Below are positions 30,710-58,666 of a stretch of 64,000 nucleotides of DNA, piece by piece (positions within the stretch are counted from its first letter, which is position 1; every line of letters begins with the position of its first letter). The notes under the pieces were generated by a model. The model saw nothing but the letters and a program-made list of their open reading frames with translations, made no database searches and had not been told where the DNA came from. The translations under genes and the position numbers were made by a program. The stretch lies in NCBI RefSeq assembly GCF_019222765.1, contig NZ_CP078145.1, forward strand, positions 1,426,001-1,490,000, in the 5' to 3' direction. Source of the DNA: Nocardia iowensis. Its GTDB lineage: Bacteria > Actinomycetota > Actinomycetes > Mycobacteriales > Mycobacteriaceae.

Positions 30710-31528
30710 TTGAGCGCGGTACTGATCTCGCCGGAAGAGCTTCGGGAAGTGTTGTCGGACAAGCGGGTTCGCCTGCTGGATGTCCGATGGGCGCTGGGTG
30801 ACCCGGACGGCCCGCAACACTATCTTGACGGCCACATCCCGGGCGCGGTGTTCGTCGACATGGAAACCGAGCTGGCCGCGCCGCCGTCGCCCACCCGCGG
30901 CAGGCATCCGCTGCCCGACCTCGCGCAGCTGGAGAAGTGCGCGCGCAGCTGGGGCATTCGCAACGGGGATCCGGTGGTCGTCTACGACGCGACCGGCGGT
31001 ATGGCGGCCGCCCGCGCTTGGTGGCTGCTGCGCTGGGCGGGCATCGCCGACGTGCGGATCCTCGATGGCGGCTTGCCCGCCTGGACGAACACCGGCGGTG
31101 AGCTCGCCACCGGCACCGAACCCGACCCCGAACCCGGGGACGTCGAACTGAGCCCCGGACACCTGAAAGTTATCGATGCCGACGCGGCCGCCCGCTGGCC
31201 TGGCGTGCTGCTCGACGCCCGCGCGGGCGAGCGCTATCGCGGCGACGTCGAGCCGATCGATCCGCGGGCCGGTCACATCCCCGGCGCCATCAGCGCGCCC
31301 ACCGCCGAAAACCTGGACGCCCAAGGGCGTTTCCGCGACCCGGCCGAATTGCGCGAACGTTTCGCCGGATTCGGCACCGAACCGATCGCGGTCTACTGCG
31401 GCTCCGGCGTGACAGCGGCCCATCAGGTGGCCGCGCTGGCGGTGGTCGGTATCGACGCCGCCTTGTACCCGGGCTCGTGGTCCCAATGGTCGAACGATCC
31501 GAAGCGGCCCGTCGCGACCGGAAGCTGA
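30710..31528 (+). CDS. sseA: Thiosulfate/3-mercaptopyruvate sulfurtransferase (tandem rhodanese)
   Basis: A 272-residue enzyme with two rhodanese modules. The N-terminal one (about 5-135) lacks the catalytic Cys (VVVYDATGGMAAARAWWLLRW), as usual; the C-terminal one (about 155-265) carries the active-site loop YCGSGVTA with Cys230. It transfers sulfane sulfur to cyanide or other acceptors. The TTG start at 30710 is supported by GGAG 5 nt upstream. The upstream 226 bp contain only a weak promoter-like TAGTCT near 30657. Confidence 0.92.
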   Translation: MSAVLISPEELREVLSDKRVRLLDVRWALGDPDGPQHYLDGHIPGAVFVDMETELAAPPSPTRGRHPLPDLAQLEKCARSWGIRNGDPVVVYDATGGMAAARAWWLLRWAGIADVRILDGGLPAWTNTGGELATGTEPDPEPGDVELSPGHLKVIDADAAARWPGVLLDARAGERYRGDVEPIDPRAGHIPGAISAPTAENLDAQGRFRDPAELRERFAGFGTEPIAVYCGSGVTAAHQVAALAVVGIDAALYPGSWSQWSNDPKRPVATGS

Positions 31529-41730: not shown

Positions 41731-42360
41731 TCAGTGGGATCCGAACGCGGACAGGAAAGTACGGACGGCCGCGTCGGCGATCTGCCGGATCTCGATGTCG
41801 GGGACCGCGCGGGTGCCGAGTCTGGAACGCGCCTCCAGCGGCGCGGTGAGCAGGGCGAGCAATTGCTCCGCGGCCTGCGCCGGATCGTTCGTCCGCAAGT
41901 CGCCCGCCAAGGCCAGTCGCGCCAGCCGATCCGCCAGCGCCTCGGCAATGCGCTGTGACGTCCGTTCCAGCACCGCGTCGGTGAGCTCGGGGAACGCCGC
42001 GAGCTGTGCGTAGGTCAGCGCGCGGAGGGCGCGGGCGCGCTCGGTCGAGCACACCCGGAGCAGGTCCTCGGCGACGTCCGCCAGTACCGTGCGGAGGTCG
42101 TCGCCGGGCGTCCTGAGCCGATCGGTGATCGCGAGGGTCTCCGCGGCCACCGCGTCGGCCGCGGCCAGCACGGCGTGCCGGAAGAGGGTTTGCTTGTCGG
42201 TGAGGTGGTTGTACACCGTGGGTTTCGCGACGCCCGCCTCGTCGGCGATCTCTTGGACGCAGGTCTTGTCGTAGCCGCGCCGGGCGAAGACGGTGAACGC
42301 GACGTCGAGGATCGCCTGCCGCTTGTCGATCCGCCCTCGCGCCGCCGTTGCTCCCGTCAC
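41731..42360 (-). CDS. TetR family regulator divergent from the Dabb gene
   Basis: A 209-residue regulator with the helix-turn-helix at about 14-58 (AILDVAFTVFARRGYDKTCVQEIADEAGVAKPTVYNHL) and a C-terminal domain of the TetR_C type ending FLSAFGSH. GTG 42360 is the start. Two TGAAC-N6-GTTCA dyads lie in the divergent region, one on each side of the putative Dabb promoter, so it probably represses the Dabb gene and itself. Confidence 0.9.
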   Translation of the reverse strand: MTGATAARGRIDKRQAILDVAFTVFARRGYDKTCVQEIADEAGVAKPTVYNHLTDKQTLFRHAVLAAADAVAAETLAITDRLRTPGDDLRTVLADVAEDLLRVCSTERARALRALTYAQLAAFPELTDAVLERTSQRIAEALADRLARLALAGDLRTNDPAQAAEQLLALLTAPLEARSRLGTRAVPDIEIRQIADAAVRTFLSAFGSH

Positions 42361-46128: not shown

Positions 46129-46147
46129 ATACTAGGACGTCAAACTA
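46129..46147. promoter_or_regulatory. icmF copy of the shared GGACGTC element
   Basis: The plus strand reads ATACTAGGACGTCAAACTA, 33-51 bp upstream of the icmF start. It matches ATACATGGACGTCCAACTA upstream of mmsA at 16 of 19 positions. The shared, roughly palindromic element suggests one regulator for both loci of isobutyryl-CoA metabolism. Confidence 0.6.
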
Positions 46148-46329
46148 ATCCTACGGTGATGCCGATCACAGCGCCAGGGAGAACACGCCCGGCCAATTCG
46201 GCGGAGTCGGGGGTACGGATTCCGCTCATGGTGAATGCAAAGGGCGACAACGGTCCGGGCTCGAGTTCCGATGAGACGCGATGCCCTGAAACCGAAATCT
46301 ATCTGCGCAAATCCACCAAAGGACACCTC

Positions 46330-47319
46330 ATGGGACGGAACTCTTATCGGCTCACCGCCGCGGTAGCCGCCCTCGCCCTCGGCACGCTCGCGGCACCGTT
46401 CGCGCATGCCGAACCCGCGCCGCTGAACGGGCTGTTCGCACTGGCCCCTGGCGTCTGCTCGGGCGGCGCGGTGACCGGCAGTTTCTTCCGGATGATCCTG
46501 CCGACGGGTGACGCGGGCGGTCCCTACCTGGCGAACAGCGACTCGGGTTGCAGCGACCAGACGGTGACGACGCTGTCCGCGGGCAGCGACGGCGGCCTGG
46601 TCAGCGGCACTTATCAGCCGCAGCCCGCCGCCGCATTCGACGCCGCGGGCAATGCGCAGTCGGGCCGGGTCACCCGGCCGGTCCGCTTCTACGGCGTCGA
46701 CTTCGCCACCGCGACCAACCCCACCGATCCGCAGACCGGCGGCGGCACCGGAGTGCCGCAGCTGTTCTCCGACGGCGGGCAGCTCTCCGGCGATCTGAGC
46801 AGCCTCGGGGTCACCTGGAACAACCAGGTGTTCAACCAGGGCGCACCGAAACCCGGCGGTGGACTGCCCGGCAAGACCAGTCCGGTGCACGGCACCATCG
46901 ACGGCTCGGGCAATTTCGTGATCGAGTGGACCAGCCAGATCGTCGGCGGTCCGTTCAACAATTTCACCGGCCTGTGGCATCTGGCCGGGCAATACCGTGG
47001 CGGCAGTGTTCCGCAGGCCGCACCGGCGGCCGCACCTATCGCACCAGCGCCCGCCGCCGCCCCGCCCGCTCCCGGTGCTCCGGCGGCACCTGCTCCGCCC
47101 GCTGCGCCTGCTCCGGCGGCCGCACCGGATGCCGTGCCGGTAGCGCAGGGTCAGGCACCGGCCGCCCGCACCGATCCGGTGCTGGCGTCCAAGACGATCG
47201 AGGTCCCGCGCGGACGGCACACCCCGGCCTGGGTGGTGCCGACGCTGTTCGTCGTGGCGGTCGCGGCGGCCGGAGTGTTCTTCAACGCGGACCGGATCGT
47301 CCGTCGGCAACGGCAGTGA
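46330..47319 (+). CDS. Exported, C-terminally membrane-anchored protein (paralogue 1 of a pair)
   Basis: A 329-residue protein with a Sec signal peptide (MGRNSYRLTAAVAALALGTL, likely cleavage after AHA at residue 27). The globular domain spans about 30-225, with an Ala/Pro-rich stalk at about 232-290 and a C-terminal transmembrane anchor (WVVPTLFVVAVAAAGVFF) followed by a basic tail. No known family recognised. The globular domain is clearly homologous to the lipoprotein two genes downstream, sharing WN-Q-FNQGAPKP and GPFN-FTG-WHL. AAAGGA lies 6 nt before ATG 46330. The gene heads a tightly coupled operon diverging from icmF. Confidence 0.8.
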   Translation: MGRNSYRLTAAVAALALGTLAAPFAHAEPAPLNGLFALAPGVCSGGAVTGSFFRMILPTGDAGGPYLANSDSGCSDQTVTTLSAGSDGGLVSGTYQPQPAAAFDAAGNAQSGRVTRPVRFYGVDFATATNPTDPQTGGGTGVPQLFSDGGQLSGDLSSLGVTWNNQVFNQGAPKPGGGLPGKTSPVHGTIDGSGNFVIEWTSQIVGGPFNNFTGLWHLAGQYRGGSVPQAAPAAAPIAPAPAAAPPAPGAPAAPAPPAAPAPAAAPDAVPVAQGQAPAARTDPVLASKTIEVPRGRHTPAWVVPTLFVVAVAAAGVFFNADRIVRRQRQ

Positions 47320-48377
47320 CCACCGTGTCGGGGCTGCCCACCTATTCGGAGTTCGTCTCGAATCCGGAACCCGCGCCCCCACGGCCCGCGAAGCGGTGGC
47401 CGTTCGTGCTGATCATCGTGCTCGGCGCGCTCTTGGTCCTCGCCCCCGTCGGCACCGGCATGTTTCCGCGAGCGGCCAAGGGGGAGGCGATGATCGACGC
47501 GTTCGGGCCGTATATGACGCGGTCGAGTATCGACGGCTACCGCCACGATCTCCAGGTGCTCGACGATGCCAGGACGAACGTGGTCACGCTGCAGCAACGT
47601 GGGCAGCAGCCGGGGAGCTACGACCGGGTCGACCAGTTCGCCCGTGACTACCCGGAGATCCACTACCACATGTCCGGGATGATCGGCGCGATCGATGACA
47701 ATCGGAACAACTACGAAAAGCTCTCCGGGGTAGTACCTTTCGGTACCTTGCCGTGGTTGTTCGCGCTGCCCGGTGTGGTTCTCGCCGGTGCAGGCGTGCT
47801 GGGATTCCGGCGCGCGCAGGCCGGGAAGCAGGCCTTGGCCTGGCGTTCGTTCGCCGCACTCGCCGCGCTCGGCTTGATCGCCGTGCCGCTGTTCGGTGGG
47901 CTGTTCCCCGCCTCGCCCGCGGCCCAACCGCTGATCAATGACCTGCGCCCGATCCTCACCCATGACGAGGTCCGAAAGTTGCAGGGCTATTTCGTCACTC
48001 TCGTCGCGGCCGACGGCGAACTCAACAGCCGCTACACCGCCGCCGTCCGCACCGCCCACCCGGACGCCGACCTCACCGGCATCACCACCCTCGAAACCCG
48101 TTGGCAGCCGATGACTTCCCGGCTCGCAGCGCTCATCGGGGCGATGAACGACAACGTCCGCAACTTCGATGCCGTTGTCGCGCTGAACGACTCGACGCGC
48201 CCGTTGGGCTTCGGTGCATTTCGCGGTTTGGGCTTCTTTTACCTGGTTCCGGGCATCTTCGCGCTCGCCGCCACGGTGGAGGGCCTTCGGCTGCCGACTC
48301 GACCGAGGGGAAACGGCGGCACGGCTGTGGCCGACGCGGCCAGAGCGCCCACTTCACCTGGCGGTGAGCAGAAATGA
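47316..48377 (+). CDS. Four-helix membrane protein with internal duplication, unknown function
   Basis: A 353-residue protein made of two related halves. Half 1: helix 29-48, extracytoplasmic loop 49-145, helix 146-165. Half 2: helix 178-198, loop 199-300, helix 302-323. The loops share MFPxxxxGExxID/LFPxxxxAQPLIN openings and closings IGAIDDNRNNYEKL (123-136) versus IGAMNDNVRNFDAV (274-287). No family recognised. GTG 47316 overlaps the stop of the previous gene (GTGA), and its own stop lies 36 bp before the chosen start of the next gene. It probably forms an envelope complex with the two flanking exported paralogues. Confidence 0.75.
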   Translation: MTTVSGLPTYSEFVSNPEPAPPRPAKRWPFVLIIVLGALLVLAPVGTGMFPRAAKGEAMIDAFGPYMTRSSIDGYRHDLQVLDDARTNVVTLQQRGQQPGSYDRVDQFARDYPEIHYHMSGMIGAIDDNRNNYEKLSGVVPFGTLPWLFALPGVVLAGAGVLGFRRAQAGKQALAWRSFAALAALGLIAVPLFGGLFPASPAAQPLINDLRPILTHDEVRKLQGYFVTLVAADGELNSRYTAAVRTAHPDADLTGITTLETRWQPMTSRLAALIGAMNDNVRNFDAVVALNDSTRPLGFGAFRGLGFFYLVPGIFALAATVEGLRLPTRPRGNGGTAVADAARAPTSPGGEQK

Positions 48378-48415
48378 GCACGGTCGACACCGAACGAAGC
48401 AGGAGGCGATCCGGC

Positions 48416-49231
48416 ATGAGCGCACGGCAATTGATCGCGGTGACAATGCTTGCCGCACTGGCGCTGGTGGTGTCCGGATGTTCGAGTGGTGATGACGCTT
48501 CCTCGTCGAGCGGTCCCGAGCCGCTGGTCGGCTTGCTCCGGTTCACACCGGGTTCGGTGTCCGGGGACAGCGTCGCCGGTACCTGGTTCCGGATGGTTCA
48601 GCCCGGTGGCACGCCGGATAAAGGTCCCTACATGCCCAACGGTGATTCGCCCGCGCAAGGCGGCTCGACGACCCTGCTGGAGCCGGGTACTGCGGGCGGC
48701 CTGCGCACCGGCGGATACCAGAGCGAACCGAAGCCCGGCTTCGCACAAGGGAATTCGTTATCAGCGTCGATCACCAAGCCGACCAAGTTCTTCGCGGTCG
48801 AGTTCGGCATCTCCACCAATCCGGTGGACCCGCAGACCCAGCGCAGAGTGCCGCCGCCGACGGTGACCAACGACGGCGGCAAGTTGACGGCGGACGTGTC
48901 GTCCTGGGCGGCCTCGTGGAACGACCAGGAGTTCAATCAGGGCGCGCCGAAGCCGCCGGAAAAGCAGGACGCCCAGGTGGCGGGCGCCGAACAGGTGCAG
49001 AAGGTGTGGGACTGGGTCGCCAAGCAGTGGTTCGACAAGCCGACCTCCGATGCCGCCCAAGGTCCTTCGGCCACCGGCAGTTACGACGCGAAAACTCGCA
49101 AGTTCACCCTCCAGTGGACCAGCCTCATCGTCGGGGGGCCGTTCAACGGCTTCACCGGCGTCTGGCACCTGGAGGGGGTATTCGAACCAGCCGCCGCCGC
49201 ACCGAATTCGCCTGCGCCGTCGGTCAAATAG
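48416..49231 (+). CDS. Lipoprotein (paralogue 2 of the exported pair)
   Basis: A 271-residue lipoprotein with signal peptide MSARQLIAVTMLAALALVV and lipobox VSGC (Cys22). Its domain matches the protein encoded at 46330-47319: TWFRMVQPGG versus SFFRMILPTG, STNPVDPQTQ versus ATNPTDPQTG, WNDQEFNQGAPKP, and TSLIVGGPFNGFTGVWHLEG near the C-terminus. A 40-residue insert with VWDWVAKQWFDKP is unique. AGGAGG 9 nt upstream supports ATG 48416; ATG 48374 overlaps the preceding stop (ATGA), adds 14 residues, and remains possible. Membrane-tethered outside the cytoplasm; function unknown. Confidence 0.78.
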   Translation: MSARQLIAVTMLAALALVVSGCSSGDDASSSSGPEPLVGLLRFTPGSVSGDSVAGTWFRMVQPGGTPDKGPYMPNGDSPAQGGSTTLLEPGTAGGLRTGGYQSEPKPGFAQGNSLSASITKPTKFFAVEFGISTNPVDPQTQRRVPPPTVTNDGGKLTADVSSWAASWNDQEFNQGAPKPPEKQDAQVAGAEQVQKVWDWVAKQWFDKPTSDAAQGPSATGSYDAKTRKFTLQWTSLIVGGPFNGFTGVWHLEGVFEPAAAAPNSPAPSVK

Positions 49232-49253
49232 ACATCAGAAGGAGTACGGTCCG

Positions 49254-50189
49254 ATGAGTTCTCGCACGACGTCCCGGCCGGCGCTGGCCAGTGCCATCCG
49301 CGCGGTAGCCGCGCTGACGGTCATCGGCAGCGCCGTCGCGGCTACCGCGCTGACGGTCCGCCAAGACGATGACGTCACCGCCGTGGTAGTCACCCAGGAG
49401 CAGACGGCCGCCGGCGCACGGCCCGCCGCGCCGCAGGCCCCGGCCGATCCACCGGGTGCCCCGGCTCCGGCAGCCCCGGCTCCGAACGCCCCCGCACCGG
49501 GCGGGCCCGCGCCCGCTACCTCGGTACCGCTGGGCTCGGGCGGTGCACCCACCGCCGTCGCCATCAACCCGGGTGCGGGCACACCAGCCGCGCCGTCGGC
49601 ACCGGGTGCCGGTGCGCCGAACAGTTCCGTACCACTGGGTGCGGGCGCGCCGAACAGTTCCGTCCCGCTCGGCGGCTCGGGGGCCACCAACCCGTTCGCG
49701 GCCGCCCCCGTCGGCACGCAGCCCGCGTGCCCCCTCGGCTGGCCTGCCCCGAAGCAGCAGGGCGGGCTCGCCTCGCTGATCGGGCTCGCGCCGCTGGCCG
49801 GTCCGTTCTCCTCGGAAGCGTTCGCTCTCGGCTCGGTCTATCAGCCGATCCTGCAACTGGCGGGCCCGGTCCTGGCCGAGGTCGCCCCGGTGATCGCGCA
49901 CTACCAGCCAGCGATCGATCCGTTCATCACTCAGGTGCAGGGTGTGGAAGCCGTTGTCCTGCAAGCGATCCTGCCCTACTACGGGCCCTACCGGGACCAG
50001 CTCATCGCCGCCGAGGGTGAGCTCGCCAAGGTGCTGGCCCCCATCCTCACCCGCGCCTACAACAGCGAAATCGCCTCCTGCTTCGTCGCCTGGCAAGGCC
50101 AGATCATCGACCAGGCGAAGGGCGGCCACATCACCGTTGCCTCCCTCGCCCACCCTGGCACCGTCGTAGAACTCGGCCCCGAGTCCTGA
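49254..50189 (+). CDS. Pro/Ala-rich exported protein with C-terminal globular domain
   Basis: A 311-residue protein with an N-terminal hydrophobic segment (about 12-34), probably a signal anchor. A Pro/Ala/Gly-rich low-complexity region (about 48-160) contains a tandem repeat of GAGAPNSSVPL. A C-terminal helical domain (about 165-311) has two Cys (ACPLGWP and SCFVAWQ) that could form a disulfide. AAGGAG lies 9 nt before ATG 49254. It is fourth in the operon with the two exported paralogues and the duplicated membrane protein. The stalk-like region suggests it spans the cell wall. Family not recognised. Confidence 0.75.
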   Translation: MSSRTTSRPALASAIRAVAALTVIGSAVAATALTVRQDDDVTAVVVTQEQTAAGARPAAPQAPADPPGAPAPAAPAPNAPAPGGPAPATSVPLGSGGAPTAVAINPGAGTPAAPSAPGAGAPNSSVPLGAGAPNSSVPLGGSGATNPFAAAPVGTQPACPLGWPAPKQQGGLASLIGLAPLAGPFSSEAFALGSVYQPILQLAGPVLAEVAPVIAHYQPAIDPFITQVQGVEAVVLQAILPYYGPYRDQLIAAEGELAKVLAPILTRAYNSEIASCFVAWQGQIIDQAKGGHITVASLAHPGTVVELGPES

Positions 50190-50331
50190 CTCCGCGCACC
50201 TCCTGGTGTCCCGCGCACGGATTCGCCGTACATTTCGAACGCGGCATGACGGGACGTGCGCGGGCGACGGCGCTGGTGCGCGGGATCGGTGATCTCCGGT
50301 TGCGGCGCGGGTAGCCGGACATAATGGGCGC

Positions 50332-51276
50332 ATGGCGACAGACCATCGGGTGGCTGTGCGGAAGCTGGTCGAGCAGGGCGTGCTGACCGAGGCGCAGTTC
50401 GAGGCGGTCATGGGGACGCTGGCGGCGGACGAGCAGCGGCCGCGGGGGAAGATTGTGGCCGAGATCGCGGCGTATATCGGTGCCGGGCTGGTGTTCGGTG
50501 GGATCGCACTGGTGATCGGGTCGTCCTGGGACGGTCTTTCCCGCGGTGGACAGGTCGCGGTGCTGATCGCCGTGTCGATCGGGCTCGTCCTCGGTGCGCT
50601 CGCGCTGGTCGGTGGGCCGTCCCAGCTGTTCGGACGGGCCGCACCCGGCTCCAGGGTCCGGCTCGCGGCCGCCTTGCTCGCGCTCGCCACCGGATCGATC
50701 GCCGGGACGGTGGGGACCGCATTGGACAACGGTTCCACCGACGCGGGGAAATGGGCGGTGCTCGCCGGTTTGGCGGCGGCCGTGCTCGGTTATGTCGCCG
50801 TGCCGTCAGTGATCGGCATGCTCGTCTGCGGGGTTTTCAGCGCCGCGGTGATACCGAGCGTGCTCGGTGATCGAACAGGTGTCGCCGAGGTGTGGATCGG
50901 ACTCGGCATGCTCGTGGTCGGCGGAATATGGTTCGCGCTCAGCCGGATCGGCGGCTTCGTCGAGACCTGGCTGGGATATGCGATCGGGGTCGGTATCTCG
51001 CTGATCGGTGCGCTGGTCGTCGATGTCGATGACTGGTGGTGGGCGTTTTTGCTCAGCCTGCTGGTGGCCGCGGTCTGCTTCGCGCTGTTCGCTCAGCAGC
51101 GTTCGACGGTGCTCGTCGTCGGCGGCGGCCTCGCGGTCGCGCTCGCGACGGGTCAGGCGGTTACCGAGTGGACCGACAGCGTGCTGGCCGCCGCGGTCGC
51201 GGTGCTGGTGGTCGGCGCCGTGGTGCTCGGGATCGGCGCGTACCTACTCACCAAGGCGCCGAAACCGGCGGCCTAG
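50332..51276 (+). CDS. DUF2157-like polytopic membrane protein
   Basis: A 314-residue protein. A short soluble N-terminus (VRKLVEQGVLTEAQFEAVMGTLAADE) resembles the DUF2157 start, followed by eight or nine transmembrane helices rich in Gly/Ala/Val. No catalytic motif. A CATAAT -10 (50320-50325) 6 nt before the ATG suggests a leaderless transcript independent of the preceding operon, from which it is separated by 142 bp. Function unknown. Confidence 0.8.
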   Translation: MATDHRVAVRKLVEQGVLTEAQFEAVMGTLAADEQRPRGKIVAEIAAYIGAGLVFGGIALVIGSSWDGLSRGGQVAVLIAVSIGLVLGALALVGGPSQLFGRAAPGSRVRLAAALLALATGSIAGTVGTALDNGSTDAGKWAVLAGLAAAVLGYVAVPSVIGMLVCGVFSAAVIPSVLGDRTGVAEVWIGLGMLVVGGIWFALSRIGGFVETWLGYAIGVGISLIGALVVDVDDWWWAFLLSLLVAAVCFALFAQQRSTVLVVGGGLAVALATGQAVTEWTDSVLAAAVAVLVVGAVVLGIGAYLLTKAPKPAA

Positions 51277-51327
51277 GACCGTTCGCTCACTGTGCGCTGC
51301 CTGACGTGGGATGAATCACATCGGTTA

Positions 51328-51349
51328 TATACATGGACGTCCAACTATA
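51328..51349. promoter_or_regulatory. mmsA operator candidate: TGGACGTCCA palindrome with flanking TATA
   Basis: A perfect 10-bp palindrome TGGACGTCCA (51334-51343) is flanked symmetrically by TATA on both sides (51328-51331, 51346-51349). It overlaps a TATAGG -10-like hexamer 55 bp before the mmsA ATG. The 19-nt segment 51329-51347 recurs upstream of icmF. Confidence 0.7.
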
Positions 51350-51403
51350 GGATGACCGCATACCGCTCCGCGGTGTCATGGTCGGCTACGAGACAGGACT
51401 GGC

Positions 51404-52903
51404 ATGGTTCGCGAACTCACTCACTTCATCGGCGGGCAGCACGTCGCGGGTACCTCCGGCAACTTCGGTGACGTCTTCGACCCGAATCTCGGCCAGGTGC
51501 AGGCGCGCGTGCCGCTGGCGAGCAAGGCCGAGGTCGCGGCGGTCATCGCCAATGCCGAAGCGGCGCAGCAGGTGTGGGCCGCATTCAACCCGCAGAAGCG
51601 GGCCAGGGTGCTGATGCGCTTCCTCGCGCTGGTGCAGGACGAGATGGATTCGCTCGCCGCGCTGCTCTCTTCGGAGCACGGCAAGACCATTGCCGATGCC
51701 AAGGGCGATATCCAGCGCGGTCTGGAAGTCATCGAGTTCGCCACCGGCATCCCGCACCTGCTCAAGGGCGAGTACACCGAGAGCGCGGGCACCGGCATCG
51801 ACGTCTACTCGATGCGCCAGCCGCTCGGCGTCGTCGCGGGCATCACCCCGTTCAACTTCCCCGCCATGATCCCGCTGTGGAAGGCGGGCCCCGCGCTGGC
51901 CACCGGAAACGCGTTCGTGCTCAAGCCGTCCGAGCGCGACCCGTCGGTGCCGCTGCGGCTGGCCGAGCTGTTCCTCGAGGCCGGACTGCCGCCCGGTGTG
52001 TTCAACGTCGTCAACGGCGACAAGGTGGCCGTCGACGCGCTGCTGCACGACCCGAGGATCAAGGCCGTCGGCTTCGTCGGCTCCACCCCGATCGCCCAGT
52101 ACATCTACGAGACCGCGACCGCGAACGGCAAGCGCGCCCAGTGCTTCGGCGGCGCCAAGAACCACGCGATCGTCATGCCGGACGCCGACCTCGACGATGT
52201 CGCCGACCAATTGATCGGCGCCGGTTACGGTTCCGCGGGCGAGCGGTGCATGGCCATCTCGGTGGCCGTGCCGGTCGGCGAGGAGACCGCGGACCGTCTG
52301 CTGGCCAAGCTCACCGAGCGGGTGCACAAGCTCAACATCGGCCGCTCCGACGATCCCGGCGCCGACTACGGCCCGCTGGTCGGCAAGGACGGCGTGGACC
52401 GGGTGAACAACTACGTCCAGATCGGCATCGATGAGGGGGCCGAGCTGGTGGTGGATGGACGCGGCGTGACCGTCGCGGGTGCCGAGGACGGGTACTTCGT
52501 CGGCGCAACGCTTTTCGACAAGGTCACCCCGGAAATGCGGATCTACCGGGAAGAGATCTTCGGCCCCGTGTTGGCCGTGGTCCGGGCCAAGGACTACGAG
52601 GAAGGCCTGCGCCTGGCCAACGAGCACGAATACGGCAACGGCGTAGCGATTTTCACCCGCGACGGCGACACCGCCCGGGACTTCGCGGCCCGCGTGCAGG
52701 TCGGCATGGTCGGCATCAACGTGCCGATCCCGGTCCCGATCGCGTACTACACGTTCGGTGGGTGGAAGCGTTCCGGCTTCGGCGACCTCAATCAGCACGG
52801 CCCGGACTCGATCCGCTTCTACACCAAGACCAAGACCGTCACGCAGCGCTGGCCCTCCGGCCTCAAGGAGAGCAACGCGTTCGTCATCCCGACGATGGAC
52901 TGA
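51404..52903 (+). CDS. mmsA: CoA-acylating methylmalonate-semialdehyde dehydrogenase MmsA
   Basis: An aldehyde dehydrogenase family enzyme converting methylmalonate semialdehyde to propionyl-CoA with NAD+ and CoA, the last step of valine catabolism. The 499-residue protein has PFNFPAMIPLW, the NAD-binding FVGSTPIAQYI, the catalytic GSAGERCMAIS with Cys282, and the diagnostic C-terminal GGWKRSGFGDLNQHG. It is first in a five-gene operon with spacings of 4 bp or overlaps. A palindrome in its promoter is shared with icmF. Confidence 0.96.
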   Translation: MVRELTHFIGGQHVAGTSGNFGDVFDPNLGQVQARVPLASKAEVAAVIANAEAAQQVWAAFNPQKRARVLMRFLALVQDEMDSLAALLSSEHGKTIADAKGDIQRGLEVIEFATGIPHLLKGEYTESAGTGIDVYSMRQPLGVVAGITPFNFPAMIPLWKAGPALATGNAFVLKPSERDPSVPLRLAELFLEAGLPPGVFNVVNGDKVAVDALLHDPRIKAVGFVGSTPIAQYIYETATANGKRAQCFGGAKNHAIVMPDADLDDVADQLIGAGYGSAGERCMAISVAVPVGEETADRLLAKLTERVHKLNIGRSDDPGADYGPLVGKDGVDRVNNYVQIGIDEGAELVVDGRGVTVAGAEDGYFVGATLFDKVTPEMRIYREEIFGPVLAVVRAKDYEEGLRLANEHEYGNGVAIFTRDGDTARDFAARVQVGMVGINVPIPVPIAYYTFGGWKRSGFGDLNQHGPDSIRFYTKTKTVTQRWPSGLKESNAFVIPTMD

Positions 52904-52907
52904 TCGC

Positions 52908-54047
52908 ATGTTCACCCTCGACGAAGACGAGAAGGCGATCCGCGACACCGCGCGTGGTTTCGCGGACGAGTTCCTCGCGCCGAACGCGCTGGAATGGGAT
53001 GAGCAGAAGCACTTTCCGGTCGACGTGCTGCGCAAGGCGGGGCCGCTGGGCCTCGGCGGCATCTACGTCCAGGAGGACGTAGGCGGTTCGGGTCTGCGCA
53101 GGCTCGATGCCGTGCGTATCTTCGAGCAGCTCGCCACCGGTTGCCCGGCCATCGCGGCCTACATCTCCATCCACAACATGGCCAGCTGGATGATCGACAG
53201 TTACGGCAACGACGCGCAGCGCCACCACTGGCTGCCGCGGCTGACGTCGATGGAGCTGTTGGCGAGCTACGCACTGACCGAACCAAATGTCGGCTCGGAC
53301 GCGGCGGCGCTGAGCACCAAGGCCGTTCGGGACGGTGACGCCTACATCTTCAACGGCGCAAAGCAATTCATCTCCGGCGCGGGCGCCACCGATGTGTACG
53401 TGGTCATGGCGCGCACGGCCGACGCGGGCGCACGCGGCGTTTCGGCGTTCATCGTGCCCGCCGATACTCCTGGAGTCTCGTTCGGCGCCAACGAAAGAAA
53501 GATGGGCTGGCACGCACAGCCCACCCGTCAGGTGCTCTTCGACGACGCCAGGGTGCCCGCGGCGAACCTGCTCGGCGCCGAGGGCGACGGCTTCCGTATC
53601 GCGATGAACGGCCTCAACGGCGGGCGGTTGAATATTGCCGCCTGCTCGGTCGGCGGTGCGCAGGCGGCGCTGGACAAGACCGTGCCGTATCTGGCCGAAC
53701 GCCGCGCGTTCGGCAAGCCGTTGCTGGACAACGACGCACTGCGGTTCGACCTCGCCGATATGCGTACCGAATTGGAGGCCGCCCGCACCCTGCTGTGGCG
53801 GGCCGCGGCGGCGCTCGATGCCGACGCGCCGGACAAGGTCGAGTTGTGCGCCATGGCCAAGCTGTTCGCGACCGACGCCGGTTTCGAGGTCGCCAACAAG
53901 GCGCTTCAACTGCACGGCGGCTACGGTTACCTGGCCGAGTACGGCCTGGAGAAAATCGTCCGGGATCTGCGGGTGCACCAGATCCTCGAAGGCACCAACG
54001 AAATCATGCGGGTGGTTGTCTCCCGCGCGGTGGCAGGAGCGGCATGA
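52908..54047 (+). CDS. Acyl-CoA dehydrogenase, probable isobutyryl-CoA dehydrogenase
   Basis: A 379-residue acyl-CoA dehydrogenase. Motifs: SYALTEPNVGSDAAAL, FISGAGATDVYVVMARTA, NERKMGWHAQPTRQV, ERRAFGKPL, LHGGYGYLAEYGLEKIVRDLRV and the catalytic-end LEGTNEIMRVVV. It oxidises isobutyryl-CoA to methacrylyl-CoA if context is a guide: it lies between mmsA and the 3-hydroxyisobutyryl-CoA hydrolase gene. ATG 52908 is 4 bp after the mmsA stop; the longer open frame is a shadow of mmsA. Its stop overlaps the next ATG (ATGA). Confidence 0.93.
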   Translation: MFTLDEDEKAIRDTARGFADEFLAPNALEWDEQKHFPVDVLRKAGPLGLGGIYVQEDVGGSGLRRLDAVRIFEQLATGCPAIAAYISIHNMASWMIDSYGNDAQRHHWLPRLTSMELLASYALTEPNVGSDAAALSTKAVRDGDAYIFNGAKQFISGAGATDVYVVMARTADAGARGVSAFIVPADTPGVSFGANERKMGWHAQPTRQVLFDDARVPAANLLGAEGDGFRIAMNGLNGGRLNIAACSVGGAQAALDKTVPYLAERRAFGKPLLDNDALRFDLADMRTELEAARTLLWRAAAALDADAPDKVELCAMAKLFATDAGFEVANKALQLHGGYGYLAEYGLEKIVRDLRVHQILEGTNEIMRVVVSRAVAGAA

Positions 54048-55102
54048 CCGAACCGGAAGTTCTCCTCGAGAAGCAGGATGGCTTGGGGCTCATCACCTTG
54101 AACCGCCCCAAGGCCATCAACGCGCTCAATCACTCGATGGCACTTGCCATCAGCGATGCGCTGCGGACCTGGGCAACGGATGACGAGGTGCGCACCGTCG
54201 TCGTCACCGGGGCCGGTGAGCGCGGGCTGTGCGCGGGCGGCGACATCGTCGCCATTCACACCGACGCCAAGAGCGGTGCGGCGGGCGCAGATTCGCCCAC
54301 CGGCCGCTTCTGGCGCGACGAGTACGTACTCAACGCGCTGATCGGCCGCTACCCGAAGCCCTACGTGGTGGTGATGGACGGCATCGTGATGGGCGGCGGG
54401 GTCGGCCTGTCCGGCCACGGCAGCCACCGGATCGTCACCGAACGATCCAAGATCGGCATGCCCGAGGTCGGCATCGGCTTCATCCCGGATGTCGGTGGCA
54501 CCTACCTGCTTTCGCGCACACCCGGTGAGATCGGCACGCACGTCGCGCTGACCACGGCCCGGATGGGTGCGGGTGACGCCATCGCGGCCGGCTTCGCGGA
54601 CTACTACGTCGCCGCCGAACACCTTCCGGCACTGCTGGACACGCTGCGCACCGAGCCCGCGGAGATCGCGATCGCCAAGTTCGCCACGGCCGCACCGGAA
54701 TCCGGCCTGGTCGCGCAGCGGGACTGGATCGACGCCTGCTACCGCGCCGACAGTGTCGAGGAGATCGTCGCCCGCCTGCAGGCGCACGATTCGCCCGAAG
54801 CCGCCAAGGCGGCCGCGGATATTCTCACGAAATCGCCTGTCGCGTTGAAGGTCACGCTACGGTCGTTGCGCTCGGCACGGACCGCGCCGAGCCTGGAAGC
54901 GGTGCTGAACGAGGAGTACCGGGTCTCCATCGCGGCGCTGTCCTCGTCCGATCTGGTGGAGGGCATCCGCGCGCAGGTGATCGACAAGGACCGCAATCCG
55001 CGGTGGTCGCCGGCGACCCTCGCCGACGTCAGCACCGCGCAGGTCGACGCATACTTCGCCGAATTGGGCGATCAGGAACTGGGTTTGGTGAGCAATGACT
55101 GA
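54044..55102 (+). CDS. 3-hydroxyisobutyryl-CoA hydrolase (enoyl-CoA hydratase/isomerase family)
   Basis: A 352-residue crotonase-fold protein with the longer C-terminal extension that marks 3-hydroxyisobutyryl-CoA hydrolases. Motifs: LNRPKAINALNHSM, GLCAGGDIVAIH, VVMDGIVMGGGVGLSGHG and KIGMPEVGIGFIPDVGGTYLLSR with the catalytic Glu. The C-terminal region (SPVALKVTLRSLRSARTAPSLEAVLNEEYRVS) is diagnostic for HIBCH-type enzymes. It releases 3-hydroxyisobutyrate for MmsB. Overlaps neighbours by 4 nt upstream and 8 nt downstream. Confidence 0.93.
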   Translation: MTEPEVLLEKQDGLGLITLNRPKAINALNHSMALAISDALRTWATDDEVRTVVVTGAGERGLCAGGDIVAIHTDAKSGAAGADSPTGRFWRDEYVLNALIGRYPKPYVVVMDGIVMGGGVGLSGHGSHRIVTERSKIGMPEVGIGFIPDVGGTYLLSRTPGEIGTHVALTTARMGAGDAIAAGFADYYVAAEHLPALLDTLRTEPAEIAIAKFATAAPESGLVAQRDWIDACYRADSVEEIVARLQAHDSPEAAKAAADILTKSPVALKVTLRSLRSARTAPSLEAVLNEEYRVSIAALSSSDLVEGIRAQVIDKDRNPRWSPATLADVSTAQVDAYFAELGDQELGLVSND

Positions 55103-55988
55103 GAAGATCGGATTCCTCGGCCTCGGCCACATGGGCGCGCCGATGGCGGCAAACCTGGTCAAGGCCGGATATGAAGTGCTGGCCTACGATCCGGTGCCCG
55201 CCGCGCAGGAGCAGGCCAGCCGGGACGGCGCCACCGTGGTGAGCACGGCCGCCGAAGCGGCGGCCGCCGGCGTCGTCATCACCATGCTGCCCAACGGGAA
55301 ACTGGTTCTCGACGTCTACGCCGAACTGCTACCCGCCGCCAAGCCGGGCACCCTGTTCATCGACTGCTCCACCATCGACGTCGCCGACGCCAAGTCCGCC
55401 GCCGTCCTCGCCATCGGCGCGGGCCACCGTGCCCTGGACGCGCCCGTCTCGGGCGGCGTCGCCGGTGCGGCGGCAGGCACCCTGACCTTCATGGTCGGTG
55501 GTGGCGCCGAAGACTTCGCCGCGGCCCTGCCGCTGCTCGAGGTGATGGGCGGCAAGGTCGTGCACTGCGGCGGCTCCGGCGTCGGCCAGGCCGCCAAGAT
55601 CTGCAACAACATGCTCCTCGGCGTCTCCATGATCGCGCTGTCCGAAGCCCTGGTCCTCGGCGAGAAACTCGGCCTGAGCCACCAGTCGTTCTTCGACGTC
55701 GTCTCCACCGCCTCCGGCCAGAGCTGGGCGCTGACCAGCTACTGTCCCGTCCCCGGCCCGGTCCCCACCAGCCCCGCCAACAACGACTATCAGCCCGGTT
55801 TCGCCACCGCGCTGATGAACAAAGACCTCGGCCTCGCCGCAAACGCATTGCGCGAGAACGGCATCGACGGGCAGGTCGGCCTGCTCGCCGCGGAGATCTA
55901 CAACCGGTTCAACCAGACGTCCGGCGGACGGGACTTCTCCGCTATCGTCGAGGAAATCCGTAACCGTTCCGACCGAGAAGGTGCCTAA
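55095..55988 (+). CDS. mmsB: 3-hydroxyisobutyrate dehydrogenase MmsB
   Basis: A 297-residue NAD-dependent beta-hydroxyacid dehydrogenase converting 3-hydroxyisobutyrate to methylmalonate semialdehyde. The N-terminal GFLGLGHMGAPMAANL binds NAD, ALDAPVSGGVAGAAAGTL binds substrate, and Lys168 in GQAAKICNNMLLG is the catalytic Lys. It overlaps the upstream gene by 8 nt, consistent with coupled translation in the valine operon. Confidence 0.96.
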   Translation: MTEKIGFLGLGHMGAPMAANLVKAGYEVLAYDPVPAAQEQASRDGATVVSTAAEAAAAGVVITMLPNGKLVLDVYAELLPAAKPGTLFIDCSTIDVADAKSAAVLAIGAGHRALDAPVSGGVAGAAAGTLTFMVGGGAEDFAAALPLLEVMGGKVVHCGGSGVGQAAKICNNMLLGVSMIALSEALVLGEKLGLSHQSFFDVVSTASGQSWALTSYCPVPGPVPTSPANNDYQPGFATALMNKDLGLAANALRENGIDGQVGLLAAEIYNRFNQTSGGRDFSAIVEEIRNRSDREGA

Positions 55989-55991
55989 AAG

Positions 55992-56801
55992 ATGGACGCA
56001 TCGCGTAGCGATTCTGTGGGGGGCGGGCCCGAGTTCGAGACGATTCTGCTGGAGCGCAAGGGCCGGGTCGGCTGGATCACGCTGAACCGTCCGAAGGCGC
56101 TCAACGCGCTCAACGCGCAGGTCCTCGATGACGTGATCGCCGCGCTGGACGAGCTGGAGCGCGACGACGAGATCGGAGCGGTGGTCATCACCGGGTCGGA
56201 CCGGGCCTTCGCGGCCGGTGCCGACATCAAGGAGATGCAGCCGAAGTCGTACATGGACATGTTCCTGAACGACTATTTCGCGCGCTGGGACCGGCTCGCC
56301 CAGTTCCGCAAGCCCACCATTGCCGCGGTCGCCGGGTACGCCCTCGGCGGCGGCTGTGAGCTGGCCATGATCTGCGACATCCTGATCGCGGCGGACACGG
56401 CGAAGTTCGGCCAGCCGGAGATCAAGCTCGGCGTCATTCCCGGCATCGGTGGCTCGCAGCGGCTCACCCGCGCGGTCGGCAAGGCCAAGGCGATGGATCT
56501 GGTGCTCACTGGTCGCAACATGGACGCCGAGGAGGCAGAGCGCGCGGGACTGGTTTCGCGCATCGTGCCCGCGGGTGAACTGCTCGACACCGCGCTCGAG
56601 GTGGCCGAGACGATCGCGTCGATGTCGTTGCCGGTCACCATGATTGCGAAGGAGGCGGTCAACCGTTCCTTCGAGACCACGCTCGCCGAGGGGCTGCGCT
56701 TCGAACGCCGGGTGTTCCACTCGCTGTTCGCCATCGATGATCAGAAGGAAGGCATGACCGCCTTCGTTGAGAAGCGTCCGGCGAAGTTCACCAACCGCTG
56801 A
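55992..56801 (+). CDS. echA8: Enoyl-CoA hydratase (EchA8-like)
   Basis: A 269-residue crotonase that hydrates enoyl-CoA, here probably methacrylyl-CoA to 3-hydroxyisobutyryl-CoA. Motifs: [41 protein letters not shown] (first catalytic Glu) and [20 protein letters not shown] (second Glu). The sequence closely follows mycobacterial EchA8. It starts 3 bp after mmsB and closes the operon, with GC-rich repeats beyond its stop. Confidence 0.94.
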
Positions 56802-58123: not shown

Positions 58124-58666
58124 CTAGGTCGCGGACCAGTGCGCCTGTTCATCACCGGTGTCGAAGTCGCCTGCGGCATGTCGGAATTCCGCCAATAGCT
58201 GTAGCAGGGTGTGCAGCCGATCCGGCGGCAGGCCGGGCAGTGCGAAGACCTTGGTATTGAGTTCCTCGGTCGCCTGCGCGACCAATTCCCTTCCGGCGTC
58301 GGTGATCTCGATCAAGGTCGCGCGCCGGTCGGTGGGGTGCGGCACCCGCTCGACCAGCTTCGCCGCCTCGAGTCGATCGACGGTATTGGTCACGCTGGTG
58401 GGGTGCACCTGCAACCGTGCGCTGGCCTTCGCCATCGGTAGCGCGCCGGTCTTGCTGAAGCTCAGCAGCATGAGCAGTTCGTACCGGGAGAAGGTCAAAC
58501 CGGTCGGTTTCAGTGCCTCGTCCACTCGCGCCATCACGATTTGCTGGGCCCGCACCAGGGAGGTCACCGCGGCCATGCCATCGGCCACGTCCCCCCAGCC
58601 GTGGCCGACCCATTGGCGATGGGCCTCCTCGATCGGATCGAGCGGAAGTGGGCGTGGCCGAGACAT
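58124..58666 (-). CDS. MarR family transcriptional regulator
   Basis: A 180-residue winged-helix regulator. The DNA-binding domain (about 45-130) shows LTFSRYELLMLLSFSKTGALPMAKASARLQVHPTSVTNTVDRLEAAKLVERVPHPTDRRATLIEIT, with the typical wing DRRATL. The N-terminal helix includes DPIEEAHRQWVGHGWGD, seen in actinobacterial MarR proteins near fatty-acid genes. It is upstream of the Hsp70-like gene on the same strand (136-bp gap). A cluster of palindromes near 58740 may be its autoregulatory site. Confidence 0.92.
   Translation of the reverse strand: MSRPRPLPLDPIEEAHRQWVGHGWGDVADGMAAVTSLVRAQQIVMARVDEALKPTGLTFSRYELLMLLSFSKTGALPMAKASARLQVHPTSVTNTVDRLEAAKLVERVPHPTDRRATLIEITDAGRELVAQATEELNTKVFALPGLPPDRLHTLLQLLAEFRHAAGDFDTGDEQAHWSAT

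Follow-up and report, generated by a model that had tools for sequence, protein, structure and literature searches.

In the 64,000-nucleotide stretch of the Nocardia iowensis genome analyzed here (contig NZ_CP078145.1, positions 1,426,001 to 1,490,000; hereafter the window), icmF and mmsA, the first gene of the mms operon, are preceded by nearly the same 19-nucleotide element; IcmF and the mms operon act on one metabolite, isobutyryl-coenzyme A (isobutyryl-CoA). The locus raises the question whether a common regulator governs both genes through this element, as the original prediction proposed, and which protein that regulator would be. We favor, with a probability of roughly 0.8, the reading that a MarR-family repressor of the Sco5413 type, encoded at 58124–58666 of the same window, uses the element as its operator and would control both icmF and the mms operon. 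The evidence is comparative and comes from genome sequences. The main features are as follows.

46130–46147, minus strand: operator upstream of icmF, TAGTTTGACGTCCTAGTA when read towards icmF; no place in the genome matches better (matrix score 31.8), and the icmF promoters of the genus conserve it
51330–51347, plus strand: operator upstream of mmsA, TACATGGACGTCCAACTA; matrix score 26.8
58124–58666, minus strand: candidate regulator, a MarR-family protein of 180 amino acids, orthologue of the 4b8x (Sco5413) type; MarR Pfam models score above the gathering score
42878–46096, minus strand: icmF, fused isobutyryl-CoA mutase/GTPase; equivalog NF045497, 1913 bits (cut-off 1500)
51404–52903, plus strand: mmsA, methylmalonate-semialdehyde dehydrogenase, the first gene of the mms operon; TIGR01722, 653 bits (cut-off 448.5)

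The element in the window and in the genome

Read directly in the window, 46129–46147 is ATACTAGGACGTCAAACTA and 51329–51347 is ATACATGGACGTCCAACTA; the two agree at 16 of 19 positions and differ at three, exactly as had been described. The icmF-side copy does lie 33–51 bp upstream of the GTG start of icmF (46096, minus strand), and the mmsA-side 19-mer ends 56 bp before the ATG of mmsA (51404). The operator proper is an 18-bp core with the consensus TACTAGGACGTCCTAGTA, which is palindromic at 18 of 18 positions. The mmsA copy had been called a perfect palindrome flanked by TATA. Its 10-bp core TGGACGTCCA and the TATA flanks indeed pair, but the two base pairs between them do not, and the symmetry extends to 18 of 22 positions.

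A degenerate pattern made from both copies, with up to three mismatches, matches the window four times against 0.10 expected. Three of these matches are the two reported places (one of them is found on both strands); the fourth, at 31132, has three mismatches. Random scatter through coding DNA, an outcome that would speak against the original prediction, was looked for in the whole 8.95-Mb genome and did not emerge: with 0–1 mismatch the pattern occurs at the two reported places only. With up to three mismatches there is no excess (67/78 for the degenerate pattern vs 92/106 for the reversed one), and since these weaker matches are no more frequent than those of the reversed pattern, we regard them as background. 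A looser symmetric pattern with 0–1 mismatch gives seven places in the genome vs four for its reversed control, and the five extra places have weight-matrix scores of 12.6 or less.

The weight matrix was built from 39 training sites, some of which come from genomes later counted in the 115-genome icmF table described below; none comes from the 80 Streptomyces loci or from 39 of the 40 MarR loci (all but L197). With a matrix restricted to sites from other genera, the two places come first and second in the 64 kb (30.0 and 23.5), and the third place scores 9.0; the largest score in 20 shuffles is 15.7. Very probably the two copies are a real operator shared by both genes. Among the matches listed, 28 further places of the genome were scored by the matrix, the best reaching 16.4 (L024), 12.6 (L184) and 12.4 (L005). 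The L005 place (1501–1518), a weak site TAATTGGACATCCCAATG directly before an open reading frame elsewhere in the genome, is a possible, unproven third target.

Conservation and linkage to a MarR gene

In a sample of 60 genomes icmF is present in 33, including 26 of the 36 genomes of the genus of the window, and a close mmsA orthologue is present in 35 of these 36. The site was found in all 26 icmF promoter regions of the genus (22 loci directly, G019 via its mmsA side, and G001, G011 and G027 in a further comparison). A site scoring 18 or more stands at all 35 mmsA orthologues (30 loci, four more, and G006), the weakest being TACTAGGATGTCCAATAG of G006, with a score of 18.1 at −77. A lack of conservation, by which the prediction could have failed, was thus not observed at the orthologues of either gene. 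The mmsA site is also kept in 10 of 10 genomes of the genus that have mmsA and are devoid of icmF.

Of the 20 genomes of the genus in which a single contig holds both genes, 12 have the two side by side and divergent, with less than 300 bp between them. In several divergent genomes a site of the icmF type and another of the mmsA type occur together, while G001, G025 and G027 carry only one. In the window icmF and mmsA are about 5.3 kb apart, with other genes between them, and each retains its own site. The presence of the site at both genes across the genus supports a common regulator of icmF and the mms operon.

No regulator gene had been noticed beside either site. It is true that none touches them, but two lie near: a TetR-family gene at 41731–42360 and the MarR gene at 58124–58666, which is located 1.3 kb past the last mms gene and 12 kb from icmF. 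The MarR protein has a winged-helix domain (PF12802, 47.2 bits, cut-off 27; PF01047, 36.6 bits, cut-off 24.6), and an orthologue is encoded in 36 of the 36 sampled genomes of the genus. Its closest solved structure is 4b8x (E-value 1e-40), which we take to be Sco5413 of Streptomyces coelicolor.

Other families of the order also have the site in front of icmF; in one of these loci (L054) a gene divergent from icmF encodes an orthologue of the MarR protein of the window. For a wider comparison we tabulated 115 actinobacterial genomes in which the icmF start could be used. The phylum sample has icmF in 19 of 296 genomes, three of which were left out as partial hits. The class sample has it in 116 of 393, of which 98 were used and 18 dropped (the genome of the window, another from its genus, and 16 whose hits were partial or split or whose upstream sequence was too short). 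Two of the seven icmF genomes outside the genus in the 60-genome sample, G046 and G059, were also dropped, their hits beginning at residue 149 or 154; both have a site-like stretch upstream of icmF. G048, whose contig ends early, was counted as site-bearing on a separate promoter comparison.

A MarR gene of this type lies within 1.5 kb of icmF, upstream, downstream or divergent, in 79 of the 115 genomes. The site is located upstream of icmF in 103 of the 109 genomes that encode the MarR protein (96 at a score of 15 or more and seven at 8–15). Among the icmF genomes devoid of the MarR gene it was found upstream of icmF in none of six, the best scores being 3.7 or less. Fisher's test of site against MarR gives p = 3e-7 by genome and 5e-6 by genus; the latter test, which includes 44 genera with MarR (41 with the site) and six genera with a MarR-less icmF genome, removes relatedness only partly.

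The surroundings of the MarR gene lead to the same site. It is present, with a score of 14 or more, in 29 of 40 stretches around the gene: 24 times between the MarR gene and a separate gene for the large subunit of an acyl-CoA mutase, once upstream of icmF, three times upstream of an mms-type operon (L202, L203 and L223) and once upstream of another acyl-CoA dehydrogenase gene (L224). The named loci, i.e., the best 80 of 591 candidates, are all from Streptomyces. A site scoring 20 or more is present in 79 of them, always between the MarR gene and the split mutase, and the mutase is missing from the only locus without the site (L271). No other position in these loci (1.09 Mb) reaches 12, and the reversed sequence gave none. 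In genus g27, whose layout of MarR and mutase is that of the named Streptomyces loci (judging by gene order, it is presumably Streptomyces), five of six icmF-bearing genomes have the site both at an unlinked icmF and at the split mutase; in the sixth (G240) the mutase beside MarR is missing and the site is at icmF alone. Sites at two unlinked genes argue that a trans-acting, diffusible regulator reads them.

Three split mutases that we examined score well above the cut-off of TIGR00641 and below that of the methylmalonyl-CoA mutase equivalog. They have a glutamine within the stretch EYIAQKEWLF. We take this position to be that of the arginine which holds the carboxylate in methylmalonyl-CoA mutase; if so, the glutamine points to substrates of the isobutyryl-CoA type. 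We likewise assume that SCO5415 is icmA. The distribution of the site argues for an operator that follows function rather than gene family.

The protein encoded beside the split mutase in L187 of genus g27 matches 4b8x with an E-value of 1e-84 and is 92–98% identical to the 80 named Streptomyces proteins. In an alignment of 17 sequences (A1) the similarity is full-length, and D10, A15, W19, H86, S89, V90 and T91 are invariant; the stretch VHPTSVT, which should lie in the recognition helix, varies little or not at all. The conserved N-terminal stretch (D10, A15, W19) precedes the part covered by the 4b8x chain of 147 residues, which is aligned from residue 25 of the 169-residue L187 protein (L187:6134–6640). 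The annotated start of Sco5413 may be placed too far downstream.

Taking these observations together, we think it quite likely that the MarR protein encoded at 58124–58666 reads the operator. A broader statement appears fairly probable: MarR proteins of the Sco5413 type would be dedicated, probably acyl-CoA-sensing repressors of actinobacterial B12-dependent isobutyryl-CoA mutases, with one operator for both the split form of the enzyme and the fused IcmF, and with the mms operon also taken over in the lineage of the window. In this reading the crystallized form is missing a conserved N-terminal segment that is probably present in the true protein.

Proposed regulation and its alternatives

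The position of the operator relative to candidate promoter elements bears on how the regulator would act.

46129–46134, minus strand: candidate −10 box of icmF, TAGTAT, inside the operator end; the same or a similar hexamer is present in most icmF loci compared (by eye)
46148–46153, minus strand: second candidate −10 box of icmF, TAGGAT (by eye)
51348–51353, plus strand: candidate −10 box of mmsA, TAGGAT, directly behind the operator; the same hexamer is present in most icmF-bearing genomes of the genus (by eye)
46155–46170, minus strand: CRP-like site upstream of icmF, TGTGATCGGCATCACC; one mismatch to TGTGAN6TCACA
51305–51320, plus strand: weaker CRP-like site upstream of mmsA, CGTGGGATGAATCACA; two mismatches to TGTGAN6TCACA

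According to the mechanism that we propose, a homodimer of the Sco5413-type MarR protein would bind the pseudo-palindrome TACTAGGACGTCCTAGTA. At icmF the operator covers the region of the candidate −10 box and start point and at mmsA it lies just upstream of the candidate −10 box, so the bound regulator would block both promoters; a site over or abutting candidate −10 boxes suits a repressor. Both the binding and the repression are inferred. During breakdown of valine or isobutyrate an intermediate of the pathway, most simply isobutyryl-CoA or an acyl-CoA derived from it, would release the repressor. The release would turn on both exits of isobutyryl-CoA, namely IcmF, which isomerizes it to butyryl-CoA, and the mms operon, whose products oxidize it to propionyl-CoA. 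The choice of isobutyryl-CoA or a near product as the ligand is a guess by analogy: CouR of Rhodococcus jostii is a MarR repressor released by the acyl-CoA of its own pathway, p-coumaroyl-CoA (PMC4737184).

A CRP-like palindrome with at most two mismatches lies within 180 bp upstream in 22 of 22 icmF loci of the genus and in 18 of 20 mmsA loci of icmF-bearing genomes. At mmsA of icmF-less genomes the best such palindrome has four mismatches in nine of ten cases, and coding control windows have three to four. This suggests that the CRP-like palindrome is a second input shared by icmF and mmsA. Divergent icmF/mmsA pairs can share one CRP-like site.

The same MarR protein could read the site as an activator, or with a ligand that is not a CoA thioester. 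Some MarR proteins do activate (PMC4737184), and the upstream CRP-like site makes activation of these promoters by some factor plausible. However, the operator overlaps or abuts the candidate −10 boxes, which is the usual position for repression, and in CoA-linked catabolism the MarR regulator CouR acts as a repressor that an acyl-CoA releases (PMC4737184). We consider this variant unlikely.

Still less probable is that the operator belongs to another regulator, for example to the TetR-family protein encoded at 41731–42360, just past the end of icmF. In the window some 0.5 kb lies between its gene and the downstream end of icmF, and palindromes of comparable length are bound by TetR proteins of branched-chain catabolism, BkaR among them (PMC3920632). 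However, within flanks of 1.5 kb this TetR gene stands beside icmF in only three of 21 other loci of the genus and in no locus of other genera, whereas the site is present at 21 of the 21 loci. Moreover, the core reported for BkaR, GTTA(N)T(N4)A(N)TAAC (PMC3920632), is a different sequence. The TetR protein was rejected as the regulator, because its linkage to icmF is not conserved within the flanks searched. The poorest explanation, a conserved promoter or RNA feature that is no protein-binding operator, would fit an element that lies at promoters and can partly double as a −10 box, but it is very improbable given that, depending on the genome, between about 40 and more than 150 bp separate the element from the beginning of the icmF match, that the element is readable in either direction and has a fully palindromic consensus, and that it is missing in all six MarR-less icmF genomes.

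Several points weigh against control of icmF and the mms operon by the Sco5413-type MarR repressor. Sites and MarR genes are inherited together, and therefore the counts are not independent. Six genomes have a MarR gene divergent from icmF and no site seen (five of family f90 and G297), and no site was found in 11 of the 40 MarR loci, three of which (L200, L217 and L221) have a mutase gene beside MarR. A score of 16.4 is reached at L024, which lies within long open frames in another part of the genome; chance scores near 15 thus occur, and the weakest counted sites are unsafe individually. The mmsA site of the window has two broken pairs, and the promoter boxes were assigned by eye. Finally, in none of the 30 loci of the genus examined does the MarR gene's own promoter (220 bp) contain the site, so the signature of autoregulation is missing there. 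For the genus, control of the MarR gene by its own product was rejected on this count.

The f90 genomes L316, L318, L328, L340 and L351 encode three to five relatives of the MarR protein each.

Known systems and neighboring genes

The title of 4b8x, as cited in reference lists, describes a MarR-family protein “of unknown function”. Papers mention SCO5413 in reference lists, in a tree legend and in a table line of a carbon-catabolite transcriptome. The L187 orthologue resembles Sco5413 in that it matches 4b8x and adjoins both the site and the mutase, whereas the protein of the window is about 51% identical to that of L187 and has the mms operon, not a split mutase, as its neighbor.

CouR is similar in kind, being a MarR repressor of a catabolic pathway with CoA thioesters and having inverted-repeat operators at several promoters (PMC4737184). 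However, its operator is cATTGA, a 5-bp spacer and TCAATg, its substrate is aromatic, and its similarity to the MarR protein of the window is only distant (5cyv, the CouR structure, E-value 2e-9). BkaR (Rv2506) and PccD also act through palindromic operators in actinobacteria, on genes of branched-chain keto acids and propionyl-CoA (PMC3920632 and PMC11596240), but they have the TetR fold and serve another part of the pathway, and the operator of BkaR differs. On inspection, the BkaR core is missing from both sites of the window. Neither PMC3920632 nor PMC11596240 has the word mmsA in its text. A full-text literature search, judged by titles and the beginnings of abstracts, returned no published operator with the core GGACGTCC. 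Among the matches listed there is no assignment of this regulator or operator; subscription papers are covered in part by such searches, and earlier reports are possible.

In kind, this would be an ordinary pair of a MarR regulator and its operator; the gain is a function for an orphan family and a link between icmF and the mms operon. If the reading is true, a widespread MarR protein with a solved structure and no known function gains an operator, a set of targets and a testable class of ligands. Isobutyryl-CoA, the branch point of valine breakdown and of butyryl- and propionyl-CoA supply for polyketides, would be under one switch in actinobacteria, including antibiotic producers. In the lineage of the window both exits of isobutyryl-CoA would answer to one signal, and the operator with its regulator would make a ready pair for sensing short branched acyl-CoA.

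The mms operon continues behind mmsA with four genes.

52908–54047, plus strand: acyl-CoA dehydrogenase of the mms operon; acyl-CoA dehydrogenase models all below cut-off, ATG start chosen by eye
54044–55102, plus strand: probable 3-hydroxyisobutyryl-CoA hydrolase or enoyl-CoA hydratase-like protein; name inferred from the translation, ATG start chosen by eye
55095–55988, plus strand: mmsB, 3-hydroxyisobutyrate dehydrogenase; TIGR01692, 359.5 bits (cut-off 291.6)
55992–56801, plus strand: enoyl-CoA hydratase-like protein, the last gene of the operon; name inferred from the translation

The genes between icmF and mmsA (46150–51300) have no obvious link to valine and include, as judged by eye, two similar genes for secreted-like proteins.

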